30,425 nt of DNA from a virus: the IMG/VR virus record IMGVR_UViG_3300025769_000548, positions 1 through 30,425 of that record; one strand, given 5' to 3'. The position numbers and the translations under genes are program-made. Shown piece by piece: positions 15,501 to 30,225 of this stretch (position 1 is its first letter; every line of letters starts with the position of its first letter). The notes under the pieces were generated by a model. It saw only the letters and a list, made by a program, of their open reading frames with translations. It was not told where the DNA came from and searched no databases.

Positions 15501-16796
15501 GGAACTGATGTATTGCCAAAAGAAGTTACTAATGAAGTGCATGAGGGTGATGAGTTAATAATAAATTATGATAAATCTTTAAATCAAAACAAATTTAATC
15601 AACAAGACAATAGATCTGTTTATAGTGTACTTAGTTCTGGAACAGTTAAAACAAATTCATATTATGGTCCAGGACTATTATCAGACTCTTCTATTCATAG
15701 ACCTGTTACTCTTTGCAAGCAAACTGAAGATAAAATGATCGAAGGGTTTGTAGTAAATAAAGATCGTGAGCAGTATGAACCAATCATTTTCCCCACAGCA
15801 CATTTAATTACTAATATTGGAATAGGTTCTACAATAGCATTTGTTGATAATATTCGACCATTCTTCAATCCATCAAATGAAGCATCTAATTTAGATTTCC
15901 AAAATGATATAATTATTGTAGAAAATGGAGAAAAGGTTTCTGCAGCTGCTACTGCAATAGTTGGAGATGACACTCTAATTCAATCTATTGTTATTTCTGA
16001 AAATGGTGTTGGTTATAGTACAGCAACTGTGAGCATTGCAAGCACTGATGGTACTTTGGGTGTTGGAACAACAGCAGTAGCTAAAGCATACGCTATTATA
16101 AGTATTGGTGGAACAATAAATTCCATAGCTATTACAACATCTGGAATAGGTTATACGAATACAAATCCACCATCAGTGTTAATTTCGCCACCACAATTTG
16201 AACAAGAAACTAATAAAGTTGTATCTTTTGAAGGCGATTTTGGTATTATTGTTGGTGTTGGAACAACTAATGTTGGGGTTTCTACTGGAATAGCATTTGA
16301 TTTAATAATACCTCAAGATTCTTATTTGAGAGATACTTCAATTGTCGGAACTGCAACAACATTAACAGGATTAAAAGAGGGTTATTACTTTACTGTCTTT
16401 AATTCAAACGTTGGATATGGTGTGACTTCACTTGATGAAAATAATGAAATAGTTGGAATTGGAACCACTTGTTTAGATAATGTTTATAGAGTTTCTGGAA
16501 TCACCACTGCTCTTGAAAGAGATATAATAGGATATGGTTCAACTTATGTGACACGAGTTATTGTTAGCATTTCGACTTATTATGGATTGGATAGTGATAT
16601 TCCATCTCCAGATCAAGTTGTTTCCGGATTTACCACAGATTTCTTTGGTAAATATAGTTGGGGAAGGTTAATGCTTTCTCAAAGAACTGGAGTAATAACT
16701 TATTCAGCACAAACAAATAATGGTGTTGTTGGAATTAATACTGGATCTTTTGTGAGGAGAAAAAATTCTTTAAAATTTAGAAATTATACCACATAA
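3507..16796 (+). CDS. Giant virion structural protein (4,429 aa) in the gp7 position
   Basis: This single uninterrupted frame fills 44% of the window. The N-terminus (MAEQRVKVSQIVSNQLPEYV...YPQFVQFLTQYYQ, then FYSIKGTDASFKILFKALFG at about residues 196-215) is the usual opening of large cyanophage baseplate or virion proteins. A YHYH-type domain follows (about residues 1180-1385), then two EF-hand/dockerin-like loops (1647-1658 and 1804-1815). A conserved core has NLQRVHDNDYYQYFSYAVKS and LNHAAGFKKFSDL at about residues 2720-2775. The end, FFGKYSWGRLMLSQRTG to RNYTT, is also typical of such proteins. Much of the rest is Ser/Thr/Gly/Ile-rich beta modules repeated several times. Its position between gp6 and gp8 matches T4 gp7 (1,032 aa), the central wedge protein, but I cannot show homology to gp7. 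A role as wedge protein with fibre-like arms is an inference. Confidence 0.9.
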   Translation: MAEQRVKVSQIVSNQLPEYVRLQYPQFVQFLTQYYQGQEYPGAPLDLIQNIDSYIKINENGNTVGFTSLSNDIDVIDNSIQVDNTSGFPEKYGLLKINDEIITYSGTTSTSFTGCVRGFSGITSFTSSDNIEDLVFSNSEASSHSEGDNVENLSRLFLQEFFKKIKKQYLYGLGDQKLTDNLNKSQFIRSAKDFYSIKGTDASFKILFKALFGENVEIVRPSDYVISPSNAIYQKTKDLVAEFISGDPYDLVNKTLYQSGDENIPEAYSPVSNVEKISTGSLNKDYYRITIDGSYLKKEGSNTESIYDNFSIHPKTKCIGEIGIGQTFIDVDSTVGFPNSGSLDVVYNDFTTDTITYSNKTINQFLDVSVISKRILDGSDIDYSSFAYSAGLGRTDGIKLRIRSVIGGYNIPKVTYQQNIGSKIKIKSLGKIGNKLKENNWIFNNSQSYNVESLELIDSRNFVYRLTTIDDNILRVGDTLRLKSLNDVFLTDDFTVTTIINNKISLIRGSDVENPNGIVSVNRILNKVKTNIHPQLSKFTANVQNVYIDNDDDSVLVASNSLPYFESPTNPDIQKIILSGLVANNQTTLKVTEDFDHNFFTGDSIYYTPNKDNNGNVISKIFDEGLYFVHRVDSNNVKLAKSGSDLYNEKYVTIDDLSGKANVDITNHIIEKYAFNGKIIEPQKLIRKIPNIHNQRDDEVNEKSLATKAGATGIFINGVEILNYKSHSYVHYGEIEEINLTSPGFGYDVINPPLLSISDSVGSGATGVCGVKGNFVDIDLIDGGFDYLDIPSIQITGGNGKSAKASANTTFVDHTLSFDSSNLLDISVDFELRSGFGGISTETSKIGFSTYHRFKNGESVVYKTLGGNAVTGLSTDSTYYVNVVNDYDIKLHLSKGDALASSGTGINTISLSDFGTGNHSFTAIPKLSVSSIRIIDPGFDYENKKRMCSSAGINTSINTIDILNHGYKTGEIIRYSFNETSIGGLSTTKDYIVTTINNDSFKLSDVGIGSDLKYLYFNRNVFKNLTSSGSGLHTFNYPEISVKVIGKVGVTSIGEDTFEAKVQPIVRGELTSIHLTNNGQNYGTSRILNLKRLPKVSLISGTDAALKPVILNGQIVNVVILNSGKDYTSIPDLIVRGTGTSGKLVPILKDGAIVDVKISRPGVGYEQNSTSIEVLPAGNNAEFESVIQSWRVNEVRKNLSNVKDDDIFVSPSMNDGKGLQCYFAYGPRNLRKLVYSTDRGGRILYGRNDLRIVNGLESSNINHSPIIGWAYDGSPIYGPYGYKTNKGTGGVTQLKSGYTLKLSPNRPPLVNFPEGFFVEDFEWSYSSSEDTLDENNGRFCITPEFPNGIYAYFTTFDAIPSEDGVFKNFKAPTFPYVIGNSYHKTPDEFNFKKRSNQDDINLNDFNISRNTYPYLLSNDNSGYDYLVESYKFTDQDPTITSVNRGNITSIGIVSEGINYQVDDTVVLDASTTSRDFGQSNKVSLIGGVGVSSISCETFIVPNLEFYPNGSTVVAVHTTNHNISNNEALNVVGLSTEKYIKPGQYTVGISSLTFELQNTLNAQNITGIVTYINIKANTTSFFSDLKFVEPNDVYNLYANKTYTESVRVLLPQVGTAITSKALDPESNPTRFTDAAVYDYIWDNYDEFDVDGDGVVSFNDAIVIVRHLYGDEVKERGAFSGNRIFSTGGGISGIGYSGVPAAATRTTNREVRDFLDFRSFHSREGNIGVSTNVITGIQTGYLFYGSDPDNVVRGKVSIGQSVNSTFVAAGTTVTAIGKNSITISNTTTNTETQVGTSITFGNGLYDVDGNGQITVFSDGIMIARVFGPSEFKNPSDNGIAGFATDNTIFDTLKVLNIDPDLGRIRVLRTGNGTYSGVFGSNSELVERSRKVEIPFIGISTVNDSRKTYEYYFNPTESIGIGEDISAGAGTTITFTNPGAGQTQVFVPTRAIYLPYHTLRTGDKVVYKTNIGDTIGVSTVSGGSSVPLTQYSELYVGKINDNFIGLSTVKVSAGTTDGIFVGVTPETEHHELLYFVGLGTGVYHSLTFNNPDTVTGNLEKNIVTVSTSSTHGLSLLDNVFVEVKPNINETIKVKYNKSIRKLIVNEYDYVTSGISSENRTISITDHKLSTGQKVINFLNTSINDDSFKDEGEYYVYVVDRNTIKLTNEKYELFEKTPSFIGLSTLSSGSLSLINPPLNLVKNSTVKFDLSDSSLSYVQNNISYSAFRFDFYRDSSYKDIYVTNELNSLFAVSSEGQIGVTAGANYTLTVNDNTPNRLYYKLTPIDLNQNVIENKQISVDKEVEFFNSIFPIDSDYSGKHTVTGIGSTSFSYLLSVKPEASAYISTNTSLSYNTTSSSAYGPIKNISVGNGGKYYSEIPGISEIVTGIGTGAILNVFSDSIGKINSVRIDDIGFDYPSDLTLKPEVYIPQILRVEQLSKFKSISIITDTQGATGPTNIFRHNIPPKLVVVDGITNKVVDDAILKMNLPEKKVDILQNTFSLSDAIPKLIPTENVTGIGFTSLTYDISTKEVTVSLTNAQGPKFANLNQNTTEDFVNIRVGDNVLVENVSVGVGTTGTGYNSSNYNYKLFPVVGVTTATGIVTFSMSSVIEDDYNPGKFISNLSSPSLLPERLFPKFSIELDKTGFKESEIVKSGSKTGKVIKFDSFNKLVHIESADEFFINDTLISESFGTKAIVKDNTFFESRLDLDYYSIIGRKWSNTTGFISDNLQRVHDNDYYQYFSYAVKSKIGIDKWDESVSTLNHAAGFKKFSDLQIESSVPTSLSMKPTIEEVTTVFITLDNIVDLNCYDNFDLVHENLLISDGNRTFSNEINFTSTILTDYDESISNRVVNIDDVSGEFNSNPRSTPFSEIFRTLTEDTRSQKFITYVRDRTFVGERQLMVATVLTDTDRALGMINQYGTVYTQSDLGSLDYVIDGNDGVLRFYPTKYQYNNYNVSFFAYSLEDIVSISTVSSSHTVGISSELAGKPQGSIASIGSSEILTVGTAVTNLVVISGIGTTLPSVRSAKVLVNIEVDDGQTEFNELNVIHNGTDAHLLEFGQLNAHSIDTFGSSGLGTYGASVSSDNELIIEFTPSVGLGTTAVISANTITVGLSTEIYNNQNSGLGSESTLSSGTLITKCTELIGGSAESVAEFSSEFDAAYSIIQVADLDNDMYQMSEAIIVSDGTDAHITEFGNVETNHSLGEMTGGVNSGITQITFTPAAGVGDLHVKSFTHAIKVDTGTDSGEIDLDNSKLITNSGTYTGTELDVRKDFEILHKTYPVFKRVFDGSDSSFVDVVNNKIILPYHFFTTGEKVEYRPKTGIGTNSIGIDDITVGSGTTDKLPTTVYVIKLSESEIRFAQTAENALKPFPEPITITSVGINSDHSITSTNQNQRVLISIDNYIQSPIVSTSVTTSLADQVLITEDSVKFSGITSFFSGDYIKIDDEIMRIRGVGIGSTNAITVFRAWAGTSLAGHSTDSLVTKIKGNYNIIGNTLNFIEAPFGNNPISSTTNAPSERDWEGITTSSSFHARAFMKTGVVGATTDTYAGNYIFDDISQNFSGSEDTYIITSGNSNVVGISTNNAIVLINGILQEPGLNNDFTITEDSDVGISSIKFTGTASATSTDPNSLNVPVGGIIVSVASSRGLGYQPLISAGATAVISVGNTVESITIGNTGSGYRSNNIYEIETTTKYSVGVGSTNILLSNTNSALNVINLNTSSTNTIAIGTYIKETTSIVSIANTFVGIGSTSPYEIPAGTSVKIQIENPDVGIVNVGVATTSLGIVNVTHVGFSTINAGFVTSVTITNGGDGFSSTNPPYVIFDEPLPYSNIPLVYSETSVGSGGTQAKVNITVGQGSSVIDFEIINQGYGYGQGHVLTIPTGGITGIPTDSSIGTSFEEFKLTIQETLTDEFSAWFIGEIEPLDDFSDLFDGSRKTFSLFRSGNRLSVQSDYGSIVNVDDVLIVFINDILQIPGDSYTFSSGSTITFSEAPKSGDRLKVLFYKGTSGTDVLPKEVTNEVHEGDELIINYDKSLNQNKFNQQDNRSVYSVLSSGTVKTNSYYGPGLLSDSSIHRPVTLCKQTEDKMIEGFVVNKDREQYEPIIFPTAHLITNIGIGSTIAFVDNIRPFFNPSNEASNLDFQNDIIIVENGEKVSAAATAIVGDDTLIQSIVISENGVGYSTATVSIASTDGTLGVGTTAVAKAYAIISIGGTINSIAITTSGIGYTNTNPPSVLISPPQFEQETNKVVSFEGDFGIIVGVGTTNVGVSTGIAFDLIIPQDSYLRDTSIVGTATTLTGLKEGYYFTVFNSNVGYGVTSLDENNEIVGIGTTCLDNVYRVSGITTALERDIIGYGSTYVTRVIVSISTYYGLDSDIPSPDQVVSGFTTDFFGKYSWGRLMLSQRTGVITYSAQTNNGVVGINTGSFVRRKNSLKFRNYTT
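3715..3905 (+). other. IDDEI...RG beta module, copy in giant N-terminus
   Basis: The encoded segment has the pattern SIQVDNTSGFP...LLKINDEIITYSG...FTGCVRG. Related segments occur at 13735-13945 of the same gene (GDYIKIDDEIMRIRG...AWAG), in the DUF4815 protein (25230-25445, YARIQNEIISYTG...LTGITRG) and in the gp15 C-terminus (29965-30150). A shorter, divergent relative is at 4465-4610. It looks like a small all-beta unit used repeatedly in virion proteins; the alignment is by eye. Confidence 0.55.
5265..6620 (+). repeat. Protein-level repeats in giant: three 'TGD-x-V-x-Y' modules with GxGY repeats between
   Basis: Three diverged copies share the order His/aromatic, TG(D/E), hydrophobic, Tyr, then 'GLS', 'YYV' and 'IKL'. 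They are FDHNFFTGDSIYYTPN to NNVKLA (5280-5430), YHRFKNGESVVYKTLGG to YDIKLHLS (6055-6190) and LNHGYKTGEIIRYSFN to NDSFKLSD (6390-6520). Further copies lie at 9345-9605 (LPYHTLRTGDKVVYKT), 9850-10090 (ITDHKLSTGQKVINFL) and 13380-13650 (LPYHFFTTGEKVEYRP). Between and after them are GxGY-type repeats (SPGFGYDVINPPLLSI at about 5725; DPGFDYENKK at about 6312). DNA identity between copies is low, so these are old duplications. Confidence 0.6.
7050..7660 (+). other. YHYH-type domain within the giant protein
   Basis: The domain core is GWAYDGSPIYGPYGY (from base 7308, residue 1268), preceded by GLQCYFAYGPRNLRKLVYST and followed by LDENNGRFCITPEFPNGIYAYF and FPYVIGNSYH. The GWAYDG.PIYGPYGY and PY.IG signatures are those of the YHYH domain family. 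The eponymous YHYH tetrapeptide reads YAYF here, so the second His is lost. I recall this YAYF version from cyanophage structural proteins. The function in virions is unknown; the family is often linked to secreted or surface proteins. Confidence 0.75.
8412..8510 (+). other. EF-hand/dockerin-like calcium loop 1 in giant protein
   Basis: Residues 1647-1658 read DVDGDGVVSFND, followed by AIVIVRHLYGD. Acidic ligands fall at loop positions 1, 3, 5 and 12, with Ser at 9 and Gly at 6. This fits a dockerin-type EF-hand loop and its following helix. Calcium binding is inferred from the loop pattern. Confidence 0.7.
8907..8985 (+). other. EF-hand/dockerin-like calcium loop 2 in giant protein
   Basis: Residues 1804-1815 read DVDGNGQITVFS, followed by DGIMIARVFG. 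Ligand positions 1, 3 and 5 (Asp, Asp, Asn), Gly 6 and Ile 8 fit. Position 12 is Ser with Asp immediately after, so the loop is less canonical than copy 1. The DGxxIxRxFG helix matches the segment often found after such loops. The pair is separated by about 145 residues instead of the compact spacing of a true dockerin. Confidence 0.6.
12570..13205 (+). repeat. Tandem duplicated 'DGTDAH' module in giant protein
   Basis: Two adjacent segments match: LNVIHNGTDAHLLEFGQLNA...ELIIEFTPSVGLGTTAV (about 12570-12835) and AIIVSDGTDAHITEFGNVET...QITFTPAAGVGDLHV (about 12960-13205). They share GTDAH, EFG and the I.FTP..G.G spacing over about 80-90 residues. The copies are too diverged to form a DNA direct repeat, which indicates an old internal duplication of a beta domain. 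No function can be assigned. Confidence 0.65.
14185..15510 (+). repeat. Two 'INGILQ-PG' fibre-like modules in giant C-terminal region
   Basis: The copies are AIVLINGILQEPGLNNDFTI...SIKFTGTA (about 14235-14345) and VLIVFINDILQIPGDSYTFS...ITFSEAPKSGDRLKVLFYKG (about 15360-15500). The pattern vfING.LQ.PG..Yt......itF..aP..Gd.v is common in phage tail fibre and virion proteins, where it forms a short beta domain. GxGY repeats lie between them (for example TNGGDGFSSTNPPYVIF at about 14900). Confidence 0.6.
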
Positions 16797-18380: not shown

Positions 18381-21300
18381 ATGGCTCAACAAACAAATTT
18401 AAATGTTTCTCCATATTTTGACGATTTTGATGCTGACAAGAATTATCATAAAATTCTGTTTAAACCGGGATATCCTGTTCAAGCCAGAGAGTTAACAGGT
18501 GTTCAATCCATAATACAAAATCAAATTGATAGATTTGGGCAACATGTGTTTAAAGATGGTGCCAAAGTTATTCCCGGAAATTGGTCTTACTACTCAAACT
18601 ATCCTGGAATTAGAATAAACAATACTCATCTTGGTGTTCCAGTATCACTATATACTGATCAATTGGTTGGTAAAAGAATTATTGGTCAAACTTCAGGAAT
18701 TACAGCTATAGTTGATTATGTATTACCTCCAGAACTATCTAGTACTGGAGATACTGTTTTATATGTTCAATATGCATCATCATCTGCAACCGATAAAGAA
18801 AGTGATACTTTTTTGGATGGAGAATTTTTAAATTTACAATCAGATGTTATCACGACAGAGTTAAATGATAATTTTATACCTCAAGGAGAGTCATTTGCAT
18901 CAACAATATCGTCAAACTCTAATATCACAGGTTCATCATTTTCAATAAATGATGGTGTTTATTTTATTAGAGGATATTTTGTAGATGTACAATCTGAAAG
19001 AATTTTGTTGGCAGAAAATAATGCTGATGTTGAAAGATTTAATGTAAGAATTGGATTTAGAATACTCGAAGAAATTGTAACTTCTGATTTTGATGAATCT
19101 TTAACAGACAATGCTAAAGGATTTAATAATTATGCAGCACCAGGAGCAGATAGATTTAAATTATCAGTGTCTCTTGCATATAAATCATTAACCGATTCCA
19201 ATGATGCAGATTTTGTAGAATTAGCTAGAGTTGAAAACGATACTCTTCAAGAGATACAAAAATATACTGAGTATGATCATCTTGCTGACGAATTTGCTAG
19301 AAGAACATTTGAAGAATCTGGCGATTATTTTGTAAAAGATTTTGATATAAGTGTTTTAGAATCATTAAATAATGGTAACAATGGTGGTATTTTTTATGAT
19401 GGAGAAACAACATATTCTGGTGGAACGCCAAATCCGAGCACTGCAATATACAAAATTTCTCCTGGATGTGCTTATGTTAGAGGATACAGAATTGATAGAA
19501 CTTCTCCAACATATTTGGATATTGCAAAACCAAGAACTACAAAAGAATTAACAGGTCAAAGTATAGAATATAATACTGGAGCAACTTTTAAACTGAATAG
19601 AGTTAAAGGTGCTCCCACGATTGGAATTGGAAATACTTATATTGTAAGTTTAAGAGATCAACGTATAGATCCAAGAGCTGCTGGTTTGGGAACAGATCCT
19701 GTTTTGCCGAATAAAGAAATTGGTATTGCTAGAGTATATGATTTTGCATTGGAAGGTGGTTCTTATGATACTACTGATGGGGACATAAATCAATGGGATA
19801 TTACATTATATGATATTCAAACGTTTACTGATATTAAATTAAATGAGCCAATAACTCTTAGTGTTCCTACCCATATTAAAGGAAAATATTCTGGAGCAAC
19901 AGGATTTTTAAGAAGTCCTGTAAGTGCAGGAACAGCGATGACTGTATATGACACAAAGGGTGATTTTGTTTTAAATGAACCATTCATATTTGATGGTGTA
20001 GAAAATAGTAGAATTGGTGTGGGTCTCACAATTCACAAACTATCTGATGCAAAATCGATTATTGGTGGAGCAGGTTTATTAGGGGATGTTGGTTCTGGAG
20101 TTTCATTTACTGCAGATATTATGCTTTCCAGAATTGGTTATAATATTGGTCTTGGAACTATTACTTCTTCCAGCATCAGCAATAGCGTGACGAGCTATCA
20201 TCTTTTCGGTACTTTAGATCCTGACGGAAATCCTGGAGTATCTACATTTATTGCCGAAAATATGAACGGACTTCTCAATAATGTGGAAGTTAATGATATT
20301 ATCAGGTATACCACAACGGGTTCAAATGGTGGTTCTGATGTGCCTGATGGTGGAAGAACCTGGTATAATAGAGTTGTCAAGATTGTAAGGACCGAAGAAG
20401 ACACGGAAACTGCACCATCACCTGGATTAGCAGGTATGGGAAGTTTTGGAAGATATGGACAACACTTACTAGTAACTCCAATTCCGAATATTCCTGGTAG
20501 AGTAGAAGCTACTGGTCCAACTGTAAATAATATTGCCAGTGGTAGAAATCCGTACGGATTTGTAGGTCACTCTGGTAGAATACTTGGTGGAACTAATGCA
20601 ACCTGGAATGTACAAGATGCAGTTATCTTAAAATCCCCCCTAATCAGTTCCACTAACAATACTTTATATACAAAAATACCAAAAAATAATATTTCCGATG
20701 TAACTTTAGATGATGCACAACTGGTTATTAGAAAAACATTTGATGTAACAATTGCTGATAACCAGTTGTCATCTGCATTGGTAGCAGGTGACAATGAAAC
20801 ATTTGAACCTTTTGATGAAGAAGATTATATTTTAATTCGCACTGATGGTGATGATGGGGGAACAGAGGTTCTTACGGAAGATAAATTTGAGATAACTTCA
20901 GGCGGAAAATCTTTACAAATAAGAAATTTAAGTGACACTGGTGGTGCAGCAAAATTAATAGCAACTCTTCGTAAAGTAAAACCAACTTCAAAAATAAAAA
21001 TAAAGAACAAAATTAATACTATTGTAATTGATAAATCAAATGATGTTGGTTCTGGAGCAGGGTCAACTACTCTCAATGATGGTTTAACATATGGAAATTA
21101 TCCGTTTGGTACAAAAGTTCAAGATGAATCAATATCTTTAAATGTACCAGATGTTGTGGAAGTTCTGGGAATTTTTGAATCAAAAGATACCTCAGCTCCA
21201 TCGGCACCAAAATTAACATTGAATGCACTAACCGGTCCTTCTGGAACAACGGACGATTTAATAATTGGTGAAAAGGTATTTGGTCAAACATCCAAAGCAG

Positions 21301-24300
21301 TTGCTATTGTTGCATCAAAATTATCATCAAATCAAATAGAATGTTTATTTAAAACAGATGTCAAATTTGAAATTGGAGAGGTTTTACGATTCCAAGAATC
21401 GTCTGTTCGTGCTCTTCCGTCAGCATTAGATGAAACAAGTAAAAATATATCATCACATTATCTTTATAATAGTGGACAAACTGGTTCGATCTATAATTAT
21501 TCTTCCATAAAAAGAAAACCAGGTTTTGAAAAACCAAAGAAACAAATAAAAGTATATTTTTCAAATTTATATTTTAGTTCATCGGATGATGGCGATATTG
21601 TAACTGCAAGATCATATAGCACTGGAATAGATTATGCTAAAGATATTAGAACGGTTAATGGAATAAGAAACACTGATATTATTGACATTAGACCAAGGGT
21701 TTCTACTTATGGTGTTGAAGTTGATAAGAGGTCTCCTCTAGAATTTTTTGGTAGAACTTTTAATCAAAGTGGAAATTCTGCTGCAAATATTTTAGCCTCA
21801 GATAAATCAATACTTATTGATTATACATTTTATCTTGGAAGAATTGATAGGATTTATCTTTCAAAAACGGGAGCTATTACAGTTCAAAAAGGAGATCCAT
21901 CAGAACATCCCAAAAAACCAGTTTCAATTGATGAAGCTTTAGAGTTAGGATTTATAAATCTTCCACCATATCTATATTCTTCTAGACAAGCAAAAGTTTC
22001 ATTTTTAGAACATAAGAGATATAGAATGAAGGATATCTCTAAATTGGAAAATAGAATTAAAAATTTAGAATATTATACTTCTTTATCATTACTGGAAACG
22101 AATACTGAAAATCTATTTGTACCAGATGATGAAGGATTGAATAAATTTAAATCTGGATTTTTTGTTGATAACTTCAAGACAAATCTCAATCAAGAGGGCA
22201 GTATTCCTCTTAAAAATAGTATTGATATTGGAAATAGTGAATTGCGCCCAAGACATTATACAAATTCTGTAGATTTAGAAATAGGACCTGTTGATGGAGT
22301 TTCTCCTGATACTGATGCTAGATGGAGTATTCCCGAAGGTACTAATATTGCAAGAAGTGCAAATAATTTATTAACATTGTCTTATAATGAATTACTCTGG
22401 AAAACACAACCATTTGGTACAAGAGAAGAAAGTGTAACCCCATATTTGATAGATGTATGGTATGGTAGATTAACTCTAGACCCATCATCAGATACCTGGG
22501 TAGATACTGTAAGAATAGATGCAAAAGTAATTCAAGTTGAAGGAAATTATAATGATACGATTGCCATTCTTGGTGCAGATCCACAAACTGGGTTAGGGCC
22601 AATAATTTGGGATGCTCCAGAGACTGTTTGGACTGGCACGAGGACCAATTCATTCTCTGTTCAAAGAACCGAAGTTGGTAATTTTTCAATTGATACAGAC
22701 CTTGAAACTAATATTAACACATCGCAAGATGCACTTAGAGCAGGTCAAACAACTACGGTGAATGGAAGTGTTTCTAGTACATTTGAGGTAGAACTATCAG
22801 GTACGGAAACAGTATTTGAAGATACTATTACAGAGACGTTCAATACAGGTACAGAAACAAGGAATGGTGTAAGGGCTCTTATTACTGAAAGATATGATCA
22901 AGAATCTCAAGGAGATAAAGTTGTAAGTAGAGAGTTAATCACTTTCATGAGGAGACGCAATATTACTTTTATTGGTTCTCAATTGAAACCACAGACTAAA
23001 CTCTATGCGTATTTTGATGGCGTTAAAGTTGATAAGTATGTTACTCCAAAACTTTTACAAGTTGAAATGATTTCGGGGGTATTTCAAGTTGGAGAAACTG
23101 TTGCAACTGATATAGTTCCTGGTACATATACAAATCCTTATATAAAATTTAGACTTGCAAGACCTGATCATAAAGAAGGTCCTTTCAATGATCCATCTAG
23201 GACATATACTTCAAATCCATATACTACTGTTGTTTCTACATCAACTGAAAGTTATTACGACTTAGCAGCTAGATCTGAACTTAATGCCATTCCATCTTCA
23301 TACTCATCAACTTCAGATATATTAAATATTGACCTATTATCTTTATCAAGTCGTGGTAATGGATTCTTTGGTTATGCTTCAGTTGGAATGATATTGAAGG
23401 GTCAAACTAGTGGTGCCATTGCTCGTGTAACAGCTAAAGATTTAATAACTGATATTGCTTCTACAATATATGGAGATTTACGTATTCCAAATCCAAATTT
23501 TGCATCTAATTTGAAATTTGAAACTGGCAGTAAAGTTTTAACTTTAACTGATAATCCAAATTCTTTCAGCTCATTTAATAAAACAAGTGCTCAAGCAGAA
23601 TTTGTATCTTCTGGTACATTAGAAACGGTTCAAGAAGAAATTATCAGTACAAGAAATGCTCAAGTTCGATATCAAGAACTTCAAACTTCACGCACAGTTG
23701 AGGAATTTGTAGGATCTGACGTTGTGACAGAAGTTGTAAGCACTACAAACTTTACAGATAATGGTTCAACTACTTCAAATGACACTTTTAGTCTTCAGAT
23801 ACCTCCAGGTGCACAAGGTGCCACAGGTGCACAAGGTGCCACAGGTGCCACAGGTGCACAAGGTGCACGAGGTGGAACAGGTGGTGGCGGCCGTGCTTTC
23901 TGGAATAATTTCGATCCTAGAACCCAGACTGGGTTCCACAACGTGCCGGTGCGGTGGAACAACGGCGGTGGTGGTGGTGGTGACCCCATCGCACAAACTT
24001 TCTTATGTGAAGAACCTAGTGGACTGTTCTTAACTTCTTTAGATGTCTTTTTCTCTCAAGTTGATCCTGATGGAATCCCTGTAATTTTTCAATTAAGAAA
24101 TGTTGTCAACGGATATCCAGAATCTAATGTGTTTATACCAGGTTCTGAAGTATATATCGAACCATCAGAGATTCAGGTTTCACCAGATGGATCTATTCCC
24201 ACAAGAATTAATTTGCCAGGTCCAGTTTATTTGAGTCCGGGAAAAGAATACGCTTTAATATTAATGTCAGCATCTACATCATATAAAGTTTTAATATCTA

Positions 24301-26489
24301 GAGTTAAAGAAAATGATTTAATAACTGATGAATTTGTTAGCACTCAACCTACATTAGGATCACTATTCAAGTCACAAAATTCCACTGCATGGGAATCAAG
24401 TCAGTGGGAGGATCTCAAGTTCAATTTATATGTTGCCAATTTTGCCACTAGTGGAACGGTTGAATTCTATAACCCAATCCTCTCTGATGCTGATGGCTAT
24501 GTTCCTACGTTAATGAAAGATTCTGTGGTTGTAAATTCTAGGCAAGTACGAATTGGAATTGGATCAACTTTACAAGATGACAATATCCGCATAGGAAATA
24601 CGGTAACGCAGGATGGAACTAGTGCTTCAGGAAATTTAAAAGGATTTGCTGGCTCTATAGACGGAGCATTTTCTATTGTCAATAGTGGAATTGGTTATAC
24701 TCCCAATTCCGGATCTTTTACATTTACTGGTGTTGCAGTAACTGCTGTTACTGGATTTGGAAGAGATGCCACAGCAGAAATTACCGTTACTGATGGTGTA
24801 ATCTCTTCAGCAACTGTAACAACAGGTGTTGAGGGAACAGGATATCAAGTCGGTGATGTTCTAGCTGTTCCAAAACTTGGAAATGAAAATGTTGGAGAAG
24901 TTGGAGCTAATGGAAGACTTTCAGTCGTTTCTATTGCTGCTACAAATATGCTAATCCTTGATGATGTTCAGGGAGATTTCCAAACTGGAAGTTTTAATTC
25001 AGGAATTTCATCTGTTCGATATGATACCATTAAAGATGGTGTAGGACTTTCTACAACATTAAATGGTGCAAATGATGTTGGTGGTGGTGTATACATCGAT
25101 AATATTATTACGGTCAGTGATGGTTTGCATCTTAAAATAAACCATAAAAATCATGGTATGCACCATGAAATTAATAGAGTTGCTTTAAATAATGTAATTT
25201 CTGATGTGTCTCCAACAAAATTAAGTGCAGCGTATTCATCTTCTTCAACCGATTCTATTTCAATTGATGATAGTTCACAATTTGGAACATTTGAGAATGT
25301 TTCAGTTGCATCATCTATGCCAGGTTATGCTAGGATACAAAATGAAATTATTTCGTATACTGGAGTTTCTGCAGGTCAACTTACTGGTATTACTAGAGGA
25401 GATTTGCCTGGAGATTATCCCTTAGGAACACCAGTTGAAAAGTATGAATTTCATGGAGTTTCTTTGAGAAGGATAAACAAAACACATTTACTTAGTGATG
25501 TGGATAAAACAATTATACCCAAACCCATTACATTTGATAGTTATCATGTAAAACTTGATATGGGAATTGATGGAACCGATAGAAACACCAATGAAAACAG
25601 CTATCCAAAACTTTATCTCACAGAAACTTCTAGTGATGGTGGACTTATAACTAATGCATCACAAAATATGCCTTTTGAAATTATTAAACCAATGGTCCAA
25701 AATATTTCTGTGAGTGGAGCATCAATTAAAGCTTCAATTAGAACAGTCTCTGGAACAAATCTTAATGATGGATCTGGAACTGGATCTGATCTTCCTTTTG
25801 TAGTTCAACCAAGAGTTCCTGTTACAATAAATGAAGTAAATTATCTCGATAATACCAGTATTATTTGTTCTAGAAATAATGAACTTGAAAATGCATCAAT
25901 TTCTCAACTTCCAGGAGCAAGATCATTCAATCTTCAATTACAGTTAAATACTAATAATCAATTAGTATCTCCTGTTATTGATCTTGAAAGGATAAATGTT
26001 GTGTTAACCTCTAATAGAATTGATTCGCAAATTTCTGATTTTAATACTGATAATAGAGTGAATACTTTATTAGAAGATCCATCTTCTTTCTCTTACATCA
26101 CAAAAGAACTTCAACTAAAAAATTCATCAACTTCCATTCAAGTTCTTCTCGATGCACACCTCAATGTGTTCTCGGATTTAAGAGTGTTTTATGCTATCAG
26201 TGATAAATCTAATTTTGAACCAATATTCATTCCCTTCCCAGGATATGATAATCTTGATCCACAAGGAAATATAATATCTTCACAAAATAATAGTGGTAGA
26301 CCAGACAGCCGTGTTTCACCATCATCATATGGTTCATTTGAATCTCTTGATTTGGCCTTCAAGGAGCATAAATTTAGTGTTTCTAATTTGCCATCATTCA
26401 GATTCTATAGAATAAAACTGGTGGCAGCATCATCCAATCAGGTGTATGTCCCCAGAATTCGTAACCTAAGAACCATTTGTTTTGCATAA
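18381..26489 (+). CDS. DUF4815 virion structural protein with collagen-like repeat (2,702 aa)
   Basis: The N-terminus (MAQQTNLNVSPYFDDFDADK, KILFKPGYPVQARELTGVQS, IIQNQIDRFGQHVFKDGAKV) identifies the DUF4815 family of T4-like cyanophage virion proteins. Further landmarks are YVRGYRIDR (about residues 369-377), RYRMKDISKLENRIKNLEYY with TSLSLLETN after it (about 1213-1240), and TPYLIDVWYGRLTLDPSSDTW (about 1350-1370). A collagen-like GXY run (residues 1810-1833) is followed by a Gly-rich stretch, then DPIAQTFLCEEPSGLFLTSL and related sequence that opens a beta-rich C-terminal half. GxGY and IDDEI-type modules occur near residues 2097-2165 and 2285-2355. The gene occupies the slot of T4 genes 9-12 and wac, so a peripheral baseplate or fibre-linked role is likely by position. 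Direct homology to any T4 protein is not shown. A tail-fibre or adhesin function is possible. Confidence 0.88.
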   Translation: MAQQTNLNVSPYFDDFDADKNYHKILFKPGYPVQARELTGVQSIIQNQIDRFGQHVFKDGAKVIPGNWSYYSNYPGIRINNTHLGVPVSLYTDQLVGKRIIGQTSGITAIVDYVLPPELSSTGDTVLYVQYASSSATDKESDTFLDGEFLNLQSDVITTELNDNFIPQGESFASTISSNSNITGSSFSINDGVYFIRGYFVDVQSERILLAENNADVERFNVRIGFRILEEIVTSDFDESLTDNAKGFNNYAAPGADRFKLSVSLAYKSLTDSNDADFVELARVENDTLQEIQKYTEYDHLADEFARRTFEESGDYFVKDFDISVLESLNNGNNGGIFYDGETTYSGGTPNPSTAIYKISPGCAYVRGYRIDRTSPTYLDIAKPRTTKELTGQSIEYNTGATFKLNRVKGAPTIGIGNTYIVSLRDQRIDPRAAGLGTDPVLPNKEIGIARVYDFALEGGSYDTTDGDINQWDITLYDIQTFTDIKLNEPITLSVPTHIKGKYSGATGFLRSPVSAGTAMTVYDTKGDFVLNEPFIFDGVENSRIGVGLTIHKLSDAKSIIGGAGLLGDVGSGVSFTADIMLSRIGYNIGLGTITSSSISNSVTSYHLFGTLDPDGNPGVSTFIAENMNGLLNNVEVNDIIRYTTTGSNGGSDVPDGGRTWYNRVVKIVRTEEDTETAPSPGLAGMGSFGRYGQHLLVTPIPNIPGRVEATGPTVNNIASGRNPYGFVGHSGRILGGTNATWNVQDAVILKSPLISSTNNTLYTKIPKNNISDVTLDDAQLVIRKTFDVTIADNQLSSALVAGDNETFEPFDEEDYILIRTDGDDGGTEVLTEDKFEITSGGKSLQIRNLSDTGGAAKLIATLRKVKPTSKIKIKNKINTIVIDKSNDVGSGAGSTTLNDGLTYGNYPFGTKVQDESISLNVPDVVEVLGIFESKDTSAPSAPKLTLNALTGPSGTTDDLIIGEKVFGQTSKAVAIVASKLSSNQIECLFKTDVKFEIGEVLRFQESSVRALPSALDETSKNISSHYLYNSGQTGSIYNYSSIKRKPGFEKPKKQIKVYFSNLYFSSSDDGDIVTARSYSTGIDYAKDIRTVNGIRNTDIIDIRPRVSTYGVEVDKRSPLEFFGRTFNQSGNSAANILASDKSILIDYTFYLGRIDRIYLSKTGAITVQKGDPSEHPKKPVSIDEALELGFINLPPYLYSSRQAKVSFLEHKRYRMKDISKLENRIKNLEYYTSLSLLETNTENLFVPDDEGLNKFKSGFFVDNFKTNLNQEGSIPLKNSIDIGNSELRPRHYTNSVDLEIGPVDGVSPDTDARWSIPEGTNIARSANNLLTLSYNELLWKTQPFGTREESVTPYLIDVWYGRLTLDPSSDTWVDTVRIDAKVIQVEGNYNDTIAILGADPQTGLGPIIWDAPETVWTGTRTNSFSVQRTEVGNFSIDTDLETNINTSQDALRAGQTTTVNGSVSSTFEVELSGTETVFEDTITETFNTGTETRNGVRALITERYDQESQGDKVVSRELITFMRRRNITFIGSQLKPQTKLYAYFDGVKVDKYVTPKLLQVEMISGVFQVGETVATDIVPGTYTNPYIKFRLARPDHKEGPFNDPSRTYTSNPYTTVVSTSTESYYDLAARSELNAIPSSYSSTSDILNIDLLSLSSRGNGFFGYASVGMILKGQTSGAIARVTAKDLITDIASTIYGDLRIPNPNFASNLKFETGSKVLTLTDNPNSFSSFNKTSAQAEFVSSGTLETVQEEIISTRNAQVRYQELQTSRTVEEFVGSDVVTEVVSTTNFTDNGSTTSNDTFSLQIPPGAQGATGAQGATGATGAQGARGGTGGGGRAFWNNFDPRTQTGFHNVPVRWNNGGGGGGDPIAQTFLCEEPSGLFLTSLDVFFSQVDPDGIPVIFQLRNVVNGYPESNVFIPGSEVYIEPSEIQVSPDGSIPTRINLPGPVYLSPGKEYALILMSASTSYKVLISRVKENDLITDEFVSTQPTLGSLFKSQNSTAWESSQWEDLKFNLYVANFATSGTVEFYNPILSDADGYVPTLMKDSVVVNSRQVRIGIGSTLQDDNIRIGNTVTQDGTSASGNLKGFAGSIDGAFSIVNSGIGYTPNSGSFTFTGVAVTAVTGFGRDATAEITVTDGVISSATVTTGVEGTGYQVGDVLAVPKLGNENVGEVGANGRLSVVSIAATNMLILDDVQGDFQTGSFNSGISSVRYDTIKDGVGLSTTLNGANDVGGGVYIDNIITVSDGLHLKINHKNHGMHHEINRVALNNVISDVSPTKLSAAYSSSSTDSISIDDSSQFGTFENVSVASSMPGYARIQNEIISYTGVSAGQLTGITRGDLPGDYPLGTPVEKYEFHGVSLRRINKTHLLSDVDKTIIPKPITFDSYHVKLDMGIDGTDRNTNENSYPKLYLTETSSDGGLITNASQNMPFEIIKPMVQNISVSGASIKASIRTVSGTNLNDGSGTGSDLPFVVQPRVPVTINEVNYLDNTSIICSRNNELENASISQLPGARSFNLQLQLNTNNQLVSPVIDLERINVVLTSNRIDSQISDFNTDNRVNTLLEDPSSFSYITKELQLKNSSTSIQVLLDAHLNVFSDLRVFYAISDKSNFEPIFIPFPGYDNLDPQGNIISSQNNSGRPDSRVSPSSYGSFESLDLAFKEHKFSVSNLPSFRFYRIKLVAASSNQVYVPRIRNLRTICFA
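23808..23879 (+). repeat. Collagen-like GXY repeat (8 triplets)
   Basis: Eight Gly-X-Y triplets (GAQ, GAT, GAQ, GAT, GAT, GAQ, GAR, GGT) are encoded by near-identical 9-bp units of the form GGTGCACAA / GGTGCCACA. In phage fibres such repeats form short collagen-like trimeric stalks, so this predicts a trimerising segment in the DUF4815 protein. The near-identity of the DNA units suggests recent slippage or expansion, and copy number may vary between relatives. Confidence 0.9.
23880..23992 (+). other. GC-rich, glycine-rich island in the DUF4815 gene
   Basis: Directly after the collagen repeat the coding sequence becomes strongly GC-rich (for example GGTGGCGGCCGTGC, then CGTGCCGGTGCGG) against an AT-rich background. 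It encodes GGGGRAFWNN, FDPRTQTGFHNVPVRWNN and then six consecutive Gly before DPIAQTF. It also holds a perfect inverted repeat at 23920-23936. The frame is unbroken. Composition and codon choice differ from the flanking gene, which suggests a separately acquired or fast-evolving segment. Confidence 0.75.
23920..23936 (+). repeat. Perfect inverted repeat, 8-bp arms with 1-nt centre
   Basis: The 17-nt sequence GAACCCAGACTGGGTTC is a perfect palindrome around a central A. It lies inside the coding frame, in the GC-rich island. No T-run follows, so it is not a typical intrinsic terminator. Confidence 0.85.
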
Positions 26490-26913: not shown

Positions 26914-27756
26914 ATGGCGCAACCATCCACAAAACAAGAGTTAATAGATTATGCAAAAAGAAAACTGGGAGCGCCAGTTTTAGAAATTAATGTTGCGGAT
27001 GAGCAAATTGATGACTTAATTGATGATGCTGTTCAATTTTTTCAAGAACGGCATTTTGATGGTGTATATCCTGCATTATTTAAATATCAAATAACAGAAG
27101 AAGACATAAATCGAGGAAAAGCAAAGGCCCCGACAGGTGTTGGTATCGCTACGACTTCTGCCACAGAAACAATTGTTGGTACAGCAACAACTTTCAGTTA
27201 TTATGAAAATTCAAATTATTTAAAAATTCCAAATTCTGTAATTGGTGTTACTAAAATATTTCATTTTGATGGATCTAATGCTGTTTCCAGCAATATGTTT
27301 AGTGCCAAATATCAATTATTTTTAAATGACGTTTATTATTGGGGTTCGACAGAACTTTTATCTTATTCAATGGTAAAAACATATCTTGAAGATATTAATT
27401 TTTTACTTACTACACAAAAACAAATTAGATATAATAAGAGACAAGATAGACTTTATTTGGATATTGATTGGAATACGGTAAATGCCGGAGACTTTTTTAT
27501 CATCGATTGTTTTTCTGTTTTAGATCCAAATTCATATTCTGAAGTATGGAATGATTCTTTTTTGAAAAAATATGTGACTTCACTGATTAAGAAACAGTGG
27601 GGCCAAAATTTAATTAAATTTCAAGGCGTAAAACTTCCCGGTGGTGTGGAGCTTAATGGAAGACAGTTATATGATGATGCTCAAAAAGAAATAGACGACC
27701 TAATGGAAAAAATGTCAAATACATACGAACTTCCTCCATTAGATATGATTGGTTAA
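26914..27756 (+). CDS. 13: gp13-like neck protein
   Basis: The 280-aa product compares with 309 aa for T4 gp13. The N-terminus carries the family signature: LIDYAKRKLGAPVLEINVAD, EQIDDLIDDAVQFFQERHFD (about residues 11-50). Later conserved segments include the aromatic DVYYWGSTELLSYSMVKTYL (about 143-162), QIRYNKRQDRLYLDIDW (about 170-186) and a C-terminal helix GRQLYDDAQKEIDDLMEKM. In T4, gp13 forms part of the head completion (neck) complex with gp14, sealing the portal after DNA packaging so that the tail can attach. A Thr/Ala-rich loop (GIATTSATETIVGTATT, about residues 77-93) is inserted after the first conserved block. The start follows a weak GAG and the late-promoter-like sequence at 26885. 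gp14 begins 4 bp after the stop. Confidence 0.95.
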   Translation: MAQPSTKQELIDYAKRKLGAPVLEINVADEQIDDLIDDAVQFFQERHFDGVYPALFKYQITEEDINRGKAKAPTGVGIATTSATETIVGTATTFSYYENSNYLKIPNSVIGVTKIFHFDGSNAVSSNMFSAKYQLFLNDVYYWGSTELLSYSMVKTYLEDINFLLTTQKQIRYNKRQDRLYLDIDWNTVNAGDFFIIDCFSVLDPNSYSEVWNDSFLKKYVTSLIKKQWGQNLIKFQGVKLPGGVELNGRQLYDDAQKEIDDLMEKMSNTYELPPLDMIG

Positions 27757-27760
27757 TGCT

Positions 27761-29182
27761 ATGCTAAATCCATTTTTTCTACAAGGGTCGCAAACAGAGC
27801 AAGGTCTGGTTCAAGATCTCATAAATGAGCAATTGAGAATGTATGGTGTAGAAGTACATTATATTCCTAGAAAATATGCAACTGAAAAGACAATAATCCA
27901 AGAAGTCATTCAATCAAAATTTGATCAGGCTCATCCTATTGAGGCATATGTCAATAATTATGAAGGGTATGGTGATAATACAACTATCCTTTCAAAGTTT
28001 GGTATACAAGCAACAAATGAAATTGAATTGATAATTTCTAAAGAAAGATATGAGCAATATATATCACCATTACTCAAAGATAGGTCTAACGTAAAACTAA
28101 CTACTCGGCCAAAAGAAGGAGACTTAATTTATTTTCCACTAGGCGATAGGATTTTTGAAATTAAGTTTGTTGAGCACGAAAAACCATTCTATCAACTTAG
28201 AAAAAACTATGTTTATGTTCTGAAATGTGAACTATTCAGAATGGAACAAAATGATATCCTCGATACGGGTATTTCAGAAGTTGATGATGTTCTTACAGGA
28301 ATCTCAACAAATTTAGACGATGGTTATGTCTCATTTGGTAGTGTACAAACTTTAAATATGGTTGGTGCAGGAGTGACTGCAACTGCATCCATATCTCAAG
28401 TGTTAAATGGATCAATTCAATATATTACAGTCACTAATCGTGGTGGTGGGTATTCAAGTGCACCAACAGTTGCTATATCCTCTGCACCTTCTGGAGGAAC
28501 TACTGGAATAGCAACGGCAGTGATGATTAGTGGTATTGTTGTATGTACAGACAATACTAATCCTAACGCAAAGTCTGTTCAATCAGTTAATTTAGTTAAT
28601 CCTGGTAGTGGTTATACCACTGCACCTGGAATTAGATTCATTGGAGGTGGTGGAAGTGGTGCAGCTGCGACTTCTATGATATCTACAGGTTCTATTGGTC
28701 CAATTACAGTTTCGAATGCTGGATCTGGTTATACTGTTGCCCCACCTGTCACGTTTACAGGAATTTCCACAGTATCAGCCGCTGCCACTGCGGTGGTGAG
28801 TTCTGCAGGAACAATTACTGCAATTAATATTACAAATACTGGTACTGGATATACTGAAGCACCAACGGTCACCATAGGATCTCCATATTTGTCTGGAATT
28901 GGAACTTATATTTTCAATGAAGTTATTACAGGTTCTACTAGTGGAACAACAGCAAGAGTTAGATCTTGGAATGTAAATACTAGTGTTCTTGAAATTGCTT
29001 CTGCTAGTGGAGAATTTGTTTCCGGAGAAACTGTCGTTGGTGAAGATTCTGAAGCATCTTATATGATAAGAACGATAACTGAATTTGAGGCATCAGATGG
29101 ATTTAGTAGTAATGATGATATAGAGACAGAAGCTGATGCAATTATCGACTTTTCAGAGGGAAATCCTTTTGGTCAGGCATAA
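27761..29182 (+). CDS. 14: gp14-like neck protein with repeat-rich C-terminal extension
   Basis: I chose ATG at 27761 (473 aa). An in-frame TTG at 27749 inside the gp13 end would add four residues, but family members begin close to LNPFF. The N-terminal ~165 residues match gp14: LINEQLRMYGVEVHYIPRKY, EAYVNNYEGYGDNTTILSKF, EGDLIYFPLGDRIFEIKFVE, EKPFYQLRKNYVYVL. In T4, gp14 (256 aa) forms the neck with gp13 and is needed for head-tail joining. Here about 215 extra residues follow. They comprise at least four GxGY repeats (RGGGYSSAPTVAISS, PGSGYTTAPGIRFIG, AGSGYTVAPPVTFTG, TGTGYTEAPTVTIGS; about bases 28430-28885), then a GSTSGTTARVRSW module. The last 40 residues return to an acidic tail. No SD is seen. 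The family call is firm; the extension's role is unknown. Confidence 0.94.
   Translation: MLNPFFLQGSQTEQGLVQDLINEQLRMYGVEVHYIPRKYATEKTIIQEVIQSKFDQAHPIEAYVNNYEGYGDNTTILSKFGIQATNEIELIISKERYEQYISPLLKDRSNVKLTTRPKEGDLIYFPLGDRIFEIKFVEHEKPFYQLRKNYVYVLKCELFRMEQNDILDTGISEVDDVLTGISTNLDDGYVSFGSVQTLNMVGAGVTATASISQVLNGSIQYITVTNRGGGYSSAPTVAISSAPSGGTTGIATAVMISGIVVCTDNTNPNAKSVQSVNLVNPGSGYTTAPGIRFIGGGGSGAAATSMISTGSIGPITVSNAGSGYTVAPPVTFTGISTVSAAATAVVSSAGTITAINITNTGTGYTEAPTVTIGSPYLSGIGTYIFNEVITGSTSGTTARVRSWNVNTSVLEIASASGEFVSGETVVGEDSEASYMIRTITEFEASDGFSSNDDIETEADAIIDFSEGNPFGQA
28430..28885 (+). repeat. Four GxGY-type beta repeats in gp14
   Basis: Four units of about 35-45 residues each start with an I.V.N.G.GY...P.V.. 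strand pattern and continue through an Ala/Thr/Gly-rich strand. They are closely similar to units in the giant protein (for example TTSGIGYTNTNPPSVLISPP near 16140-16190) and in gp8. The DNA copies are diverged, but the protein pattern is clear. Confidence 0.8.
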
Positions 29183-29220: not shown

Positions 29221-30225
29221 ATGTTTGATTATTTTTATCACGAAATTTTTAGAAAAACAATCATTGCTTTTGGAACATTATTCAACAGCATAGAAATTAG
29301 GCAGACAAATTCTGCAGATTCTGTTGTTAATATAATGAAAGTGCCTCTTGCATATGGGCCCACACAGAAGTTTTTAGCAAGACTTGAGCAATCTCCGGAT
29401 TTAAATAAACCAACTCAAATGACACTACCAAGAATGTCATTTGAATTTACTGGTGTTACATATGATCCTTCTAGAAAAATTACCGCAACTCAACAATTTG
29501 TTGTAAAAAATCCAAATGATGGATCGGACGTTAAGAAATCGTTCATGCCTGTTCCATATAATATGCAGTTTGAATTGAGTATTATGACAAAACTCAATGA
29601 TGATGCTTTGCAAATAGTTGAGCAAATTCTTCCATATTTTCAACCAGCATATAATCTATCAGTGACTCTCGTAGAATCTGGAATAAATGAGAAAAGGGAT
29701 ATTCCCATTGTTTTAGAAAATGTCACAATGCAAGATGATTATGAGGGCGATTATTCTACAAGAAGAGTTCTTCTTTACACATTGAGGTTTAGTGCAAAGA
29801 CGTATCTTTTTGGACCTGTTTCTTCTGCATCCAAGGATATTATCAAGTCTTCAACAATCAGTTATATTACTGGTACAGATACTACAAATACCACAAGAAA
29901 TCTTTCTTACACGGCCGTCCCAAGAGCAATTAAGAATTATAGTGGTGATGTATTAACCAATCTAACATCAGATATTGTAAAAACAGACACATCTATTGAA
30001 GTTGATGATGCAAGTTCTATTACAAATAAAACGTATCTTGATTTGGAAGGAGAGCAAATATTTGTCACTCGAATTGATGGCAATACTATGACAGTGGAAA
30101 GGGGTAAAGATGGCACTACTATTACAGATCATCTTCGTGGTGCTCCGATAAAACCAATTACAGCAACCGATAATGCACTTGTCGAATTTGGAGATGATTT
30201 TGGTTTTGATGGTACTATAAGTTAA
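29221..30225 (+). CDS. 15: gp15-like tail terminator / sheath stabiliser, C-terminally extended
   Basis: The 334-aa product is longer than T4 gp15 (272 aa). It begins MFDYFYHEIFRKTIIAFGTL, matching the T4 start pattern MFGYFYNSSFRR. It contains QIVEQILPYFQP at residues 131-142, identical to my recollection of T4 gp15, followed by the conserved RDIPIVLENV and STRRVLLYTLRFSAKTYLFG blocks. In T4, gp15 forms a hexamer that caps the tail tube and sheath and provides the surface that joins the neck. From about residue 240 there is an extension with the IDDEI-type beta module: SIEVDDASSI, YLDLEGEQIFVTRIDGNTMT, VERGKDGTTITDHLRG. This unit also occurs in the giant and DUF4815 proteins. The start has no SD but lies 28 nt after an exact late promoter match. 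Confidence 0.96.
   Translation: MFDYFYHEIFRKTIIAFGTLFNSIEIRQTNSADSVVNIMKVPLAYGPTQKFLARLEQSPDLNKPTQMTLPRMSFEFTGVTYDPSRKITATQQFVVKNPNDGSDVKKSFMPVPYNMQFELSIMTKLNDDALQIVEQILPYFQPAYNLSVTLVESGINEKRDIPIVLENVTMQDDYEGDYSTRRVLLYTLRFSAKTYLFGPVSSASKDIIKSSTISYITGTDTTNTTRNLSYTAVPRAIKNYSGDVLTNLTSDIVKTDTSIEVDDASSITNKTYLDLEGEQIFVTRIDGNTMTVERGKDGTTITDHLRGAPIKPITATDNALVEFGDDFGFDGTIS

Follow-up and report, generated by a model that had tools for sequence, protein, structure and literature searches.

Background

The neck protein gp14 is encoded by a core T4 gene and has been treated as a plain part of the connector. T4 gp14 has 256 aa (PDB 9lu4-9lu7, 9mkb); its arm (residues 178-256) has no ordered structure until the tail joins, upon which it contacts gp15 extensively (PMC12270204). 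The T4 whiskers are formed by fibritin (wac) and bind domain III of gp13, i.e., T4 gp13 residues 190-239 (PMC12270204). For cyanomyoviruses, wac has been listed as absent, while whiskers were reported on one isolate (Clokie et al. 2010, PMC2984593). Another neck decoration of a cyanophage is found in Anabaena phage A-1(L), whose neck fibres (gp80-82) are separate bead-chain proteins on a pentadecameric adaptor with a carbohydrate module that shows no host binding (PMC10966104).

The gp14 proteins of P-SSM2, S-SM2 and other Kyanoviridae (phrog_460) are annotated as neck protein or head closure only. Ig-like and similar exchangeable beta modules occur on conserved phage structural proteins. Here, we describe gp14 from a virus record of 30,425 bases (the window, i.e., the whole stretch of DNA that was analysed). 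Ig-like modules sit at free ends, whereas the module of the window gp14 is nested within the docking arm of the connector. Searching the literature, we found no description of the gp14 module and its swapping; module swapping within this arm appears to be undescribed so far.

The gp14 gene and its core

The gp14 gene (27761..29182, plus strand) runs from the ATG at 27761 to a stop codon finishing at 29182 and encodes a neck protein (head closure Hc2) of 473 aa. In profile searches, the protein matches PF11649 (T4_neck-protein, E 1e-29) and phrog_460 (head closure Hc2, E 2.7e-131). It is flanked by gp13 (26914-27756) and gp15 (29221-30225), i.e., the gene order gp13-gp14-gp15 is that of T4.

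The conserved core spans residues 1-165 (27761..28255, plus strand) and corresponds to T4 gp14 up to about residue 177. Its fold is that of T4 gp14: VIA-align places model residues 3-162 on T4 residues 30-177 (9lu5/9lu6) with a Z of 11.6, the structure alignment shows 33% identity over 129 residues, and Foldseek matches the core to 9mkb (E 2.1e-9). The T4-like part stops near residue 162-165, in line with the original prediction, which had put the end of the core near residue 165-175; about 245 extra residues follow. Core profile, core fold, gene order and a tail ending in [NS]PF all agree with the Hc2 family. That is, the window protein is an ordinary T4-type gp14 head-closure protein, from a phage closest to marine cyanophages. 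It shares core fold, gene order and [NS]PF tail with T4 gp14 and differs from it in length (473 vs. 256 aa) as well as in the arm, which carries no folded module in T4.

The nearest annotated relatives are cyanophage proteins (full-length identity 63% for S-SM2 and 44% for P-SSM2). These and other Kyanoviridae gp14s, at about 44-63% full-length identity, show the same four repeats, TSG barrel and tail that are described below. At least 80% of the window gp14 is covered in 101 phage records. Outside the cyanophage type, gp14 is short (pf16 208, Sa157lw 213, T4 256, Vibrio 278 and Ochrobactrum phage OC 281 aa), while the related proteins range from 292 to 952 aa (S-PM2 292, S-RIM8 390, P-SSM2 470, window 473, S-CAM9 657, Sf-FS3 763 aa; the longest, 952 aa, in 3 viral contigs). 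Given about 100 cyanophage records with the same long gp14, the doubled length is a trait of the clade and not an oddity of the window phage. The original prediction was thus right that T4 gp14 has 256 aa and lacks such modules, but the near-doubling it singled out is the norm of this lineage.

The conserved tail and gp15

The protein closes with an acidic tail (residues 442-473; 29084..29182, plus strand) that ends in NPFG (final residues NPFGQA) and holds 9 D/E and 0 K/R in 32 residues. Judged by its conservation, this is the presumed gp15-docking part: a PF motif lies within the last 20 residues in 233/237 gp14s, and gp14 of T4, Vibrio, pf16 and OC finishes in SPF or NPF. Since the tail is kept in nearly all gp14s and resembles the T4 end, the modules form an insertion between core and tail and not a terminal extension, as had been supposed. 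Since residues 178-256 dock gp15 in T4, the insertion of the window gp14 sits in the tail-docking arm. Docking of gp15 in the window phage itself is carried over from T4 via the short tail motif and thus should be read as probable.

The tail terminator gp15, to which the gp14 tail binds in T4, is encoded at 29221..30225 (plus strand; 334 aa; PF16724, E 9.6e-86). The window gp15 carries an extra module just before its conserved acidic DDFGF tail, which is absent from S-PM2 gp15 (266 aa) and repeats the insertion-before-tail pattern of gp14. In three other contigs (L244, L246, L247), gp14 breaks off within its third repeat and has neither TSG module nor NPFG tail; downstream lie an ORF with weak gp9/10 similarity and a subtilase (PF00082, E 5.6e-25).

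Anatomy of the insert

The insert follows a flexible linker (residues 166-195; 28256..28345; pLDDT <50 at residues 176-193) and starts with the first strand of a TSG beta-barrel (residues 196-205, QTLNMVG...; 28346..28375; predicted strand 196-200). Within this barrel lie four GxGY repeats (residues 206-379; 28376..28897), the first three of which (R1-R3, 28376-28780) are recombining. The remainder of the barrel (residues 380-441; 28898..29083; block-mean pLDDT 84-91) holds GSTSGTTARV, which begins at residue 391. All these features are on the plus strand. The GxGY motifs are found at residues 228, 282, 321 and 361, a number reached in 0/20,000 shuffles of the window gp14, and HMM matches to the repeats cover residues 216-244, 271-298, 309-336 and 349-375 (25.6-40.3 bits). 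The GxGY repeats, GSTSGTTARV module and acidic tail noted in the original prediction are hence all present.

Among 237 gp14s, the number of repeat copies is mostly 0, 2, 4, 6, 8 or 10, where many of the proteins are closely related such that the counts are not independent events. The even counts hint at a paired unit; given the few odd counts and the related sequences, we make no claim here.

The arrangement of repeats and barrel was compared between types of gp14. In S-PM2-type proteins, the barrel is uninterrupted and without repeats, i.e., the equivalent of the first strand adjoins the rest of the barrel. S-RIM8-type proteins have two repeats between GEEVVGD and AEVKSW, while window-type proteins have four or more following the first barrel strand. 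These layouts give sequence support for a nested arrangement. For example, L097 and L116 have nearly the same core, but the barrel lacks repeats in L097 and contains two in L116. On the evidence of these layouts, a small beta-barrel hosts the GxGY repeats, and their insertion site differs between two clades.

The repeat family is also found by profile searches in large baseplate and virion proteins. Protein matches to the insert in public phage records are confined to cyanophages and marine viruses, and nearly all annotated matches among those listed are gp14s.

Predicted fold of the insert

The window gp14 was modelled with AlphaFold as a single chain using 90 aligned gp14s. For the insert (residues about 195-441), pLDDT is mostly 80-96 with a dip near residue 260, while the linkers on both sides are below 50. 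The insert is thus confidently predicted as a single beta domain flanked by flexible linkers. The model shows no coiled-coil shaft in the insert; beta strands are predicted instead. A model of an 850-aa gp14 with ten repeats reached a pLDDT of only 34 (pTM 0.23) and was left out of the analysis.

In the 193-442 range, the TSG barrel matches residues 762-844 of 9f4a_A0 (Z 7.8, rmsd 2.2, 71 residues), a 1031-aa baseplate-region protein of a Klebsiella phage, the size of which suggests gp7. Part of the same range is also matched by the small beta-barrel of archaeal aIF2-gamma (Z about 6), and values of Z <8 may merely reflect a common arrangement. The match to 9f4a_A0 aligns 71 residues over a 264-residue range and hence has to leave out most of the repeats, as expected for a barrel into which they are inserted. 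Since the alignment output lists the first and last aligned residue only, the split of the match around the repeats is our reading of it. For the repeats themselves, a PDB sequence search gives no match up to E 10, and searches with the whole gp14 model reveal no fold that clearly matches them.

A Pfam search of the window's own gp14 reveals no recognisable ligand-binding, lectin or carbohydrate-binding domain. Among its relatives, only the insert of Sf-FS3 contains a lectin-like domain (LamG_3, LamG/ConA-like; E 2.9e-7).

Exchange among close relatives

We compared the window with its closest relative (L003). Synonymous divergence is 0.5-1.0 in R1-R3 and 0.05-0.18 in core, TSG part and tail. 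Mismatches amount to 96/408 in R1-R3 and to 176/3470 elsewhere, and 0/2000 shuffles give a block that dense. The divergence of synonymous sites in R1-R3 indicates that the block was replaced and did not arise by fast protein change. Fast protein evolution alone is ruled out as the source of the difference by the raised synonymous divergence. We found no donor for the R1-R3 allele carried by the window.

Larger changes are observed for the pair L055 and L070, with flanks of 92% and 95% identity and gp14 lengths of 564 vs. 852 aa. The synonymous divergence of the insert is more than twice that of the core in 27/110 pairs with close cores, where the pairs are not independent. Where measured, dN/dS of the insert is low (0.04-0.35). 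Near-identical phages with different inserts indicate that recombination swaps inserts, and exchange by recombination is the simplest reading of these sequence comparisons.

Signs of mosaic structure between the window and L003 are also seen elsewhere. A second divergence peak lies inside gp15 (29451-29550), and upstream of 26551 the identity drops to about 70%.

Whisker genes and gp13

The window gp13 (26914..27756, plus strand; 280 aa) lacks the fibritin-binding domain III of T4, i.e., its alignment has no counterpart of T4 residues about 190-239. Of the aligned gp13s, only those of T4 and Vibrio AIR1 have the domain. The short motif spacing (no domain III) is seen in 203 gp13s of the fetched loci, while a spacing of 174 at seven loci results from motif mis-hits, with gp13s of normal length (272-275 aa). 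The gp13 of S-CAM9 (L091:2871-3992) has 373 aa and contains an insertion of about 90 residues near residue 80-170.

The missing wac gene, already pointed out in the original prediction, is uninformative alone within a 30-kb window, and we therefore tested complete relatives. The search for T4 wac in complete records matches only T4 (control) and Vibrio AIR1, and wac was not found in complete P-SSM2, S-SM2, S-PM2, S-RIM8, S-CAM9, Sf-FS3, S-SKS1, OC, pf16 and Sa157lw. The wac-less complete cyanophage genomes agree with the listing by Clokie et al. 2010 (PMC2984593). We found no confirmation that S-SKS1 is linked to the whiskered isolate of that study, which came from St Kilda. Furthermore, the Pfam search finds no Fibritin_C match in the window gp14. 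The phages pf16, Sa157lw and OC are without wac, without domain III and without gp14 insert; the insert is thus not a necessary substitute for whiskers.

If the gp14 insert is displayed outward, it would resemble T4 fibritin in being borne by the neck and projecting from it. Fibritin differs in that it is a separate trimeric coiled-coil protein on gp13 domain III, and both are absent here. The window insert does not qualify as a T4-type whisker.

Role of the insert

Taken as a whole, the observations are best explained by an exchangeable insert of a T4-type gp14, facing outward and decorating the head-tail joint; we consider this probable. Following this explanation, six gp14 subunits would each grip gp15 by the conserved NPFG tail, while the module, tethered at both ends, would loop outward at the joint between head and tail, giving a six-fold decoration there. 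With the joining core and tail kept, the module would be free to vary in length (0 to 10 repeats) and to be replaced (LamG in one phage), and it could offer a variable surface that binds or shields. Outward display is likely given the size of the module, its linkers and its variability. Participation of the insert in host adsorption of the window phage is only a possibility, for which the LamG domain of Sf-FS3 provides the sole hint.

A whisker-like or host-adsorption element projecting from the neck had been the central idea of the original prediction. In its favour, wac and gp13 domain III are missing and the insert is a confidently predicted, recombining domain; on the other hand, T4 whiskers bind gp13, the insert has a beta fold, and there are wac-less phages without insert. 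The idea is partly supported. The counter-argument named there was an extra domain buried in the connector and ordinary for the family: it is indeed normal for the family, but nothing suggests that it is buried. One may go further and assume that fibritin and its docking domain on gp13 were lost and that the gp14 module provides neck fibres or an auxiliary host-binding surface. We regard this as doubtful. T4-type wac is absent from P-SSM2, S-SM2, S-PM2, S-RIM8, S-CAM9, Sf-FS3 and S-SKS1, domain III is missing in the window and the tested cyanophages but present in the wac carriers T4 and Vibrio AIR1, a whiskered cyanomyovirus isolate exists although wac is listed absent (Clokie et al. 2010, PMC2984593), and module swapping as well as the LamG domain of Sf-FS3 would suit a binding surface. 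However, pf16, Sa157lw and OC without insert and S-PM2 with the barrel only reveal that whisker loss does not require an insert, the insert is a predicted beta domain and not a coiled-coil fibre, and the carbohydrate module of the A-1(L) neck fibres failed to bind the host (PMC10966104). Unlikely as well is a related variant, where a recombining, outward-facing and variable connector domain took over after fibritin loss and repeats or lectin-like domains tune neck binding.

The module might also act as a stiff collar or spacer, holding the head-tail joint stable without binding any ligand. A predicted folded module tethered at both ends would fit such a role, as would the gp15 of the same phages, which gained a module before its own conserved tail, and the TSG barrel with its likeness to part of a baseplate-region protein from a phage. 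That near-identical phages often have the module replaced or greatly changed in length is hard to square with a closely fitted part, and we consider the spacer role quite improbable. Improbable, too, is a selfish or neutral spread of promiscuous beta modules that move between structural genes and do no harm in any place where they can fold. While the same repeat types occur in baseplate and virion proteins, insertions are nested at two sites and modules are also found in gp15 and in the gp13 of S-CAM9, neutral spread is at odds with the low dN/dS (0.04-0.35), the conserved GxGY positions and the retention of some form of the module in nearly all sampled cyanophage gp14s.

For the exchangeable decoration favoured here, a swappable module in the docking arm, found throughout abundant phages of the ocean, suggests that variable surface parts exist even at the genome gate. 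Near-identical phage pairs with and without extra repeats provide natural material for probing the role of the module.

Other features of the window

Related motifs occur upstream of the neck genes. A 2702-aa structural protein (18381-26489) contains two TSG motifs (at 18684 and 23400) as well as a short collagen-like stretch, GAQGATGAQGATGATGAQGARGG, at 23808-23876. A very large ORF of 4429 aa in gp7 position (3507-16796) has one weak GxGY repeat near residue 4201. Finally, the ORF at 328-1092 matches phrog_3704 (labelled ferredoxin) over nearly its whole length but shows no Pfam ferredoxin domain, such that the label may be doubtful.
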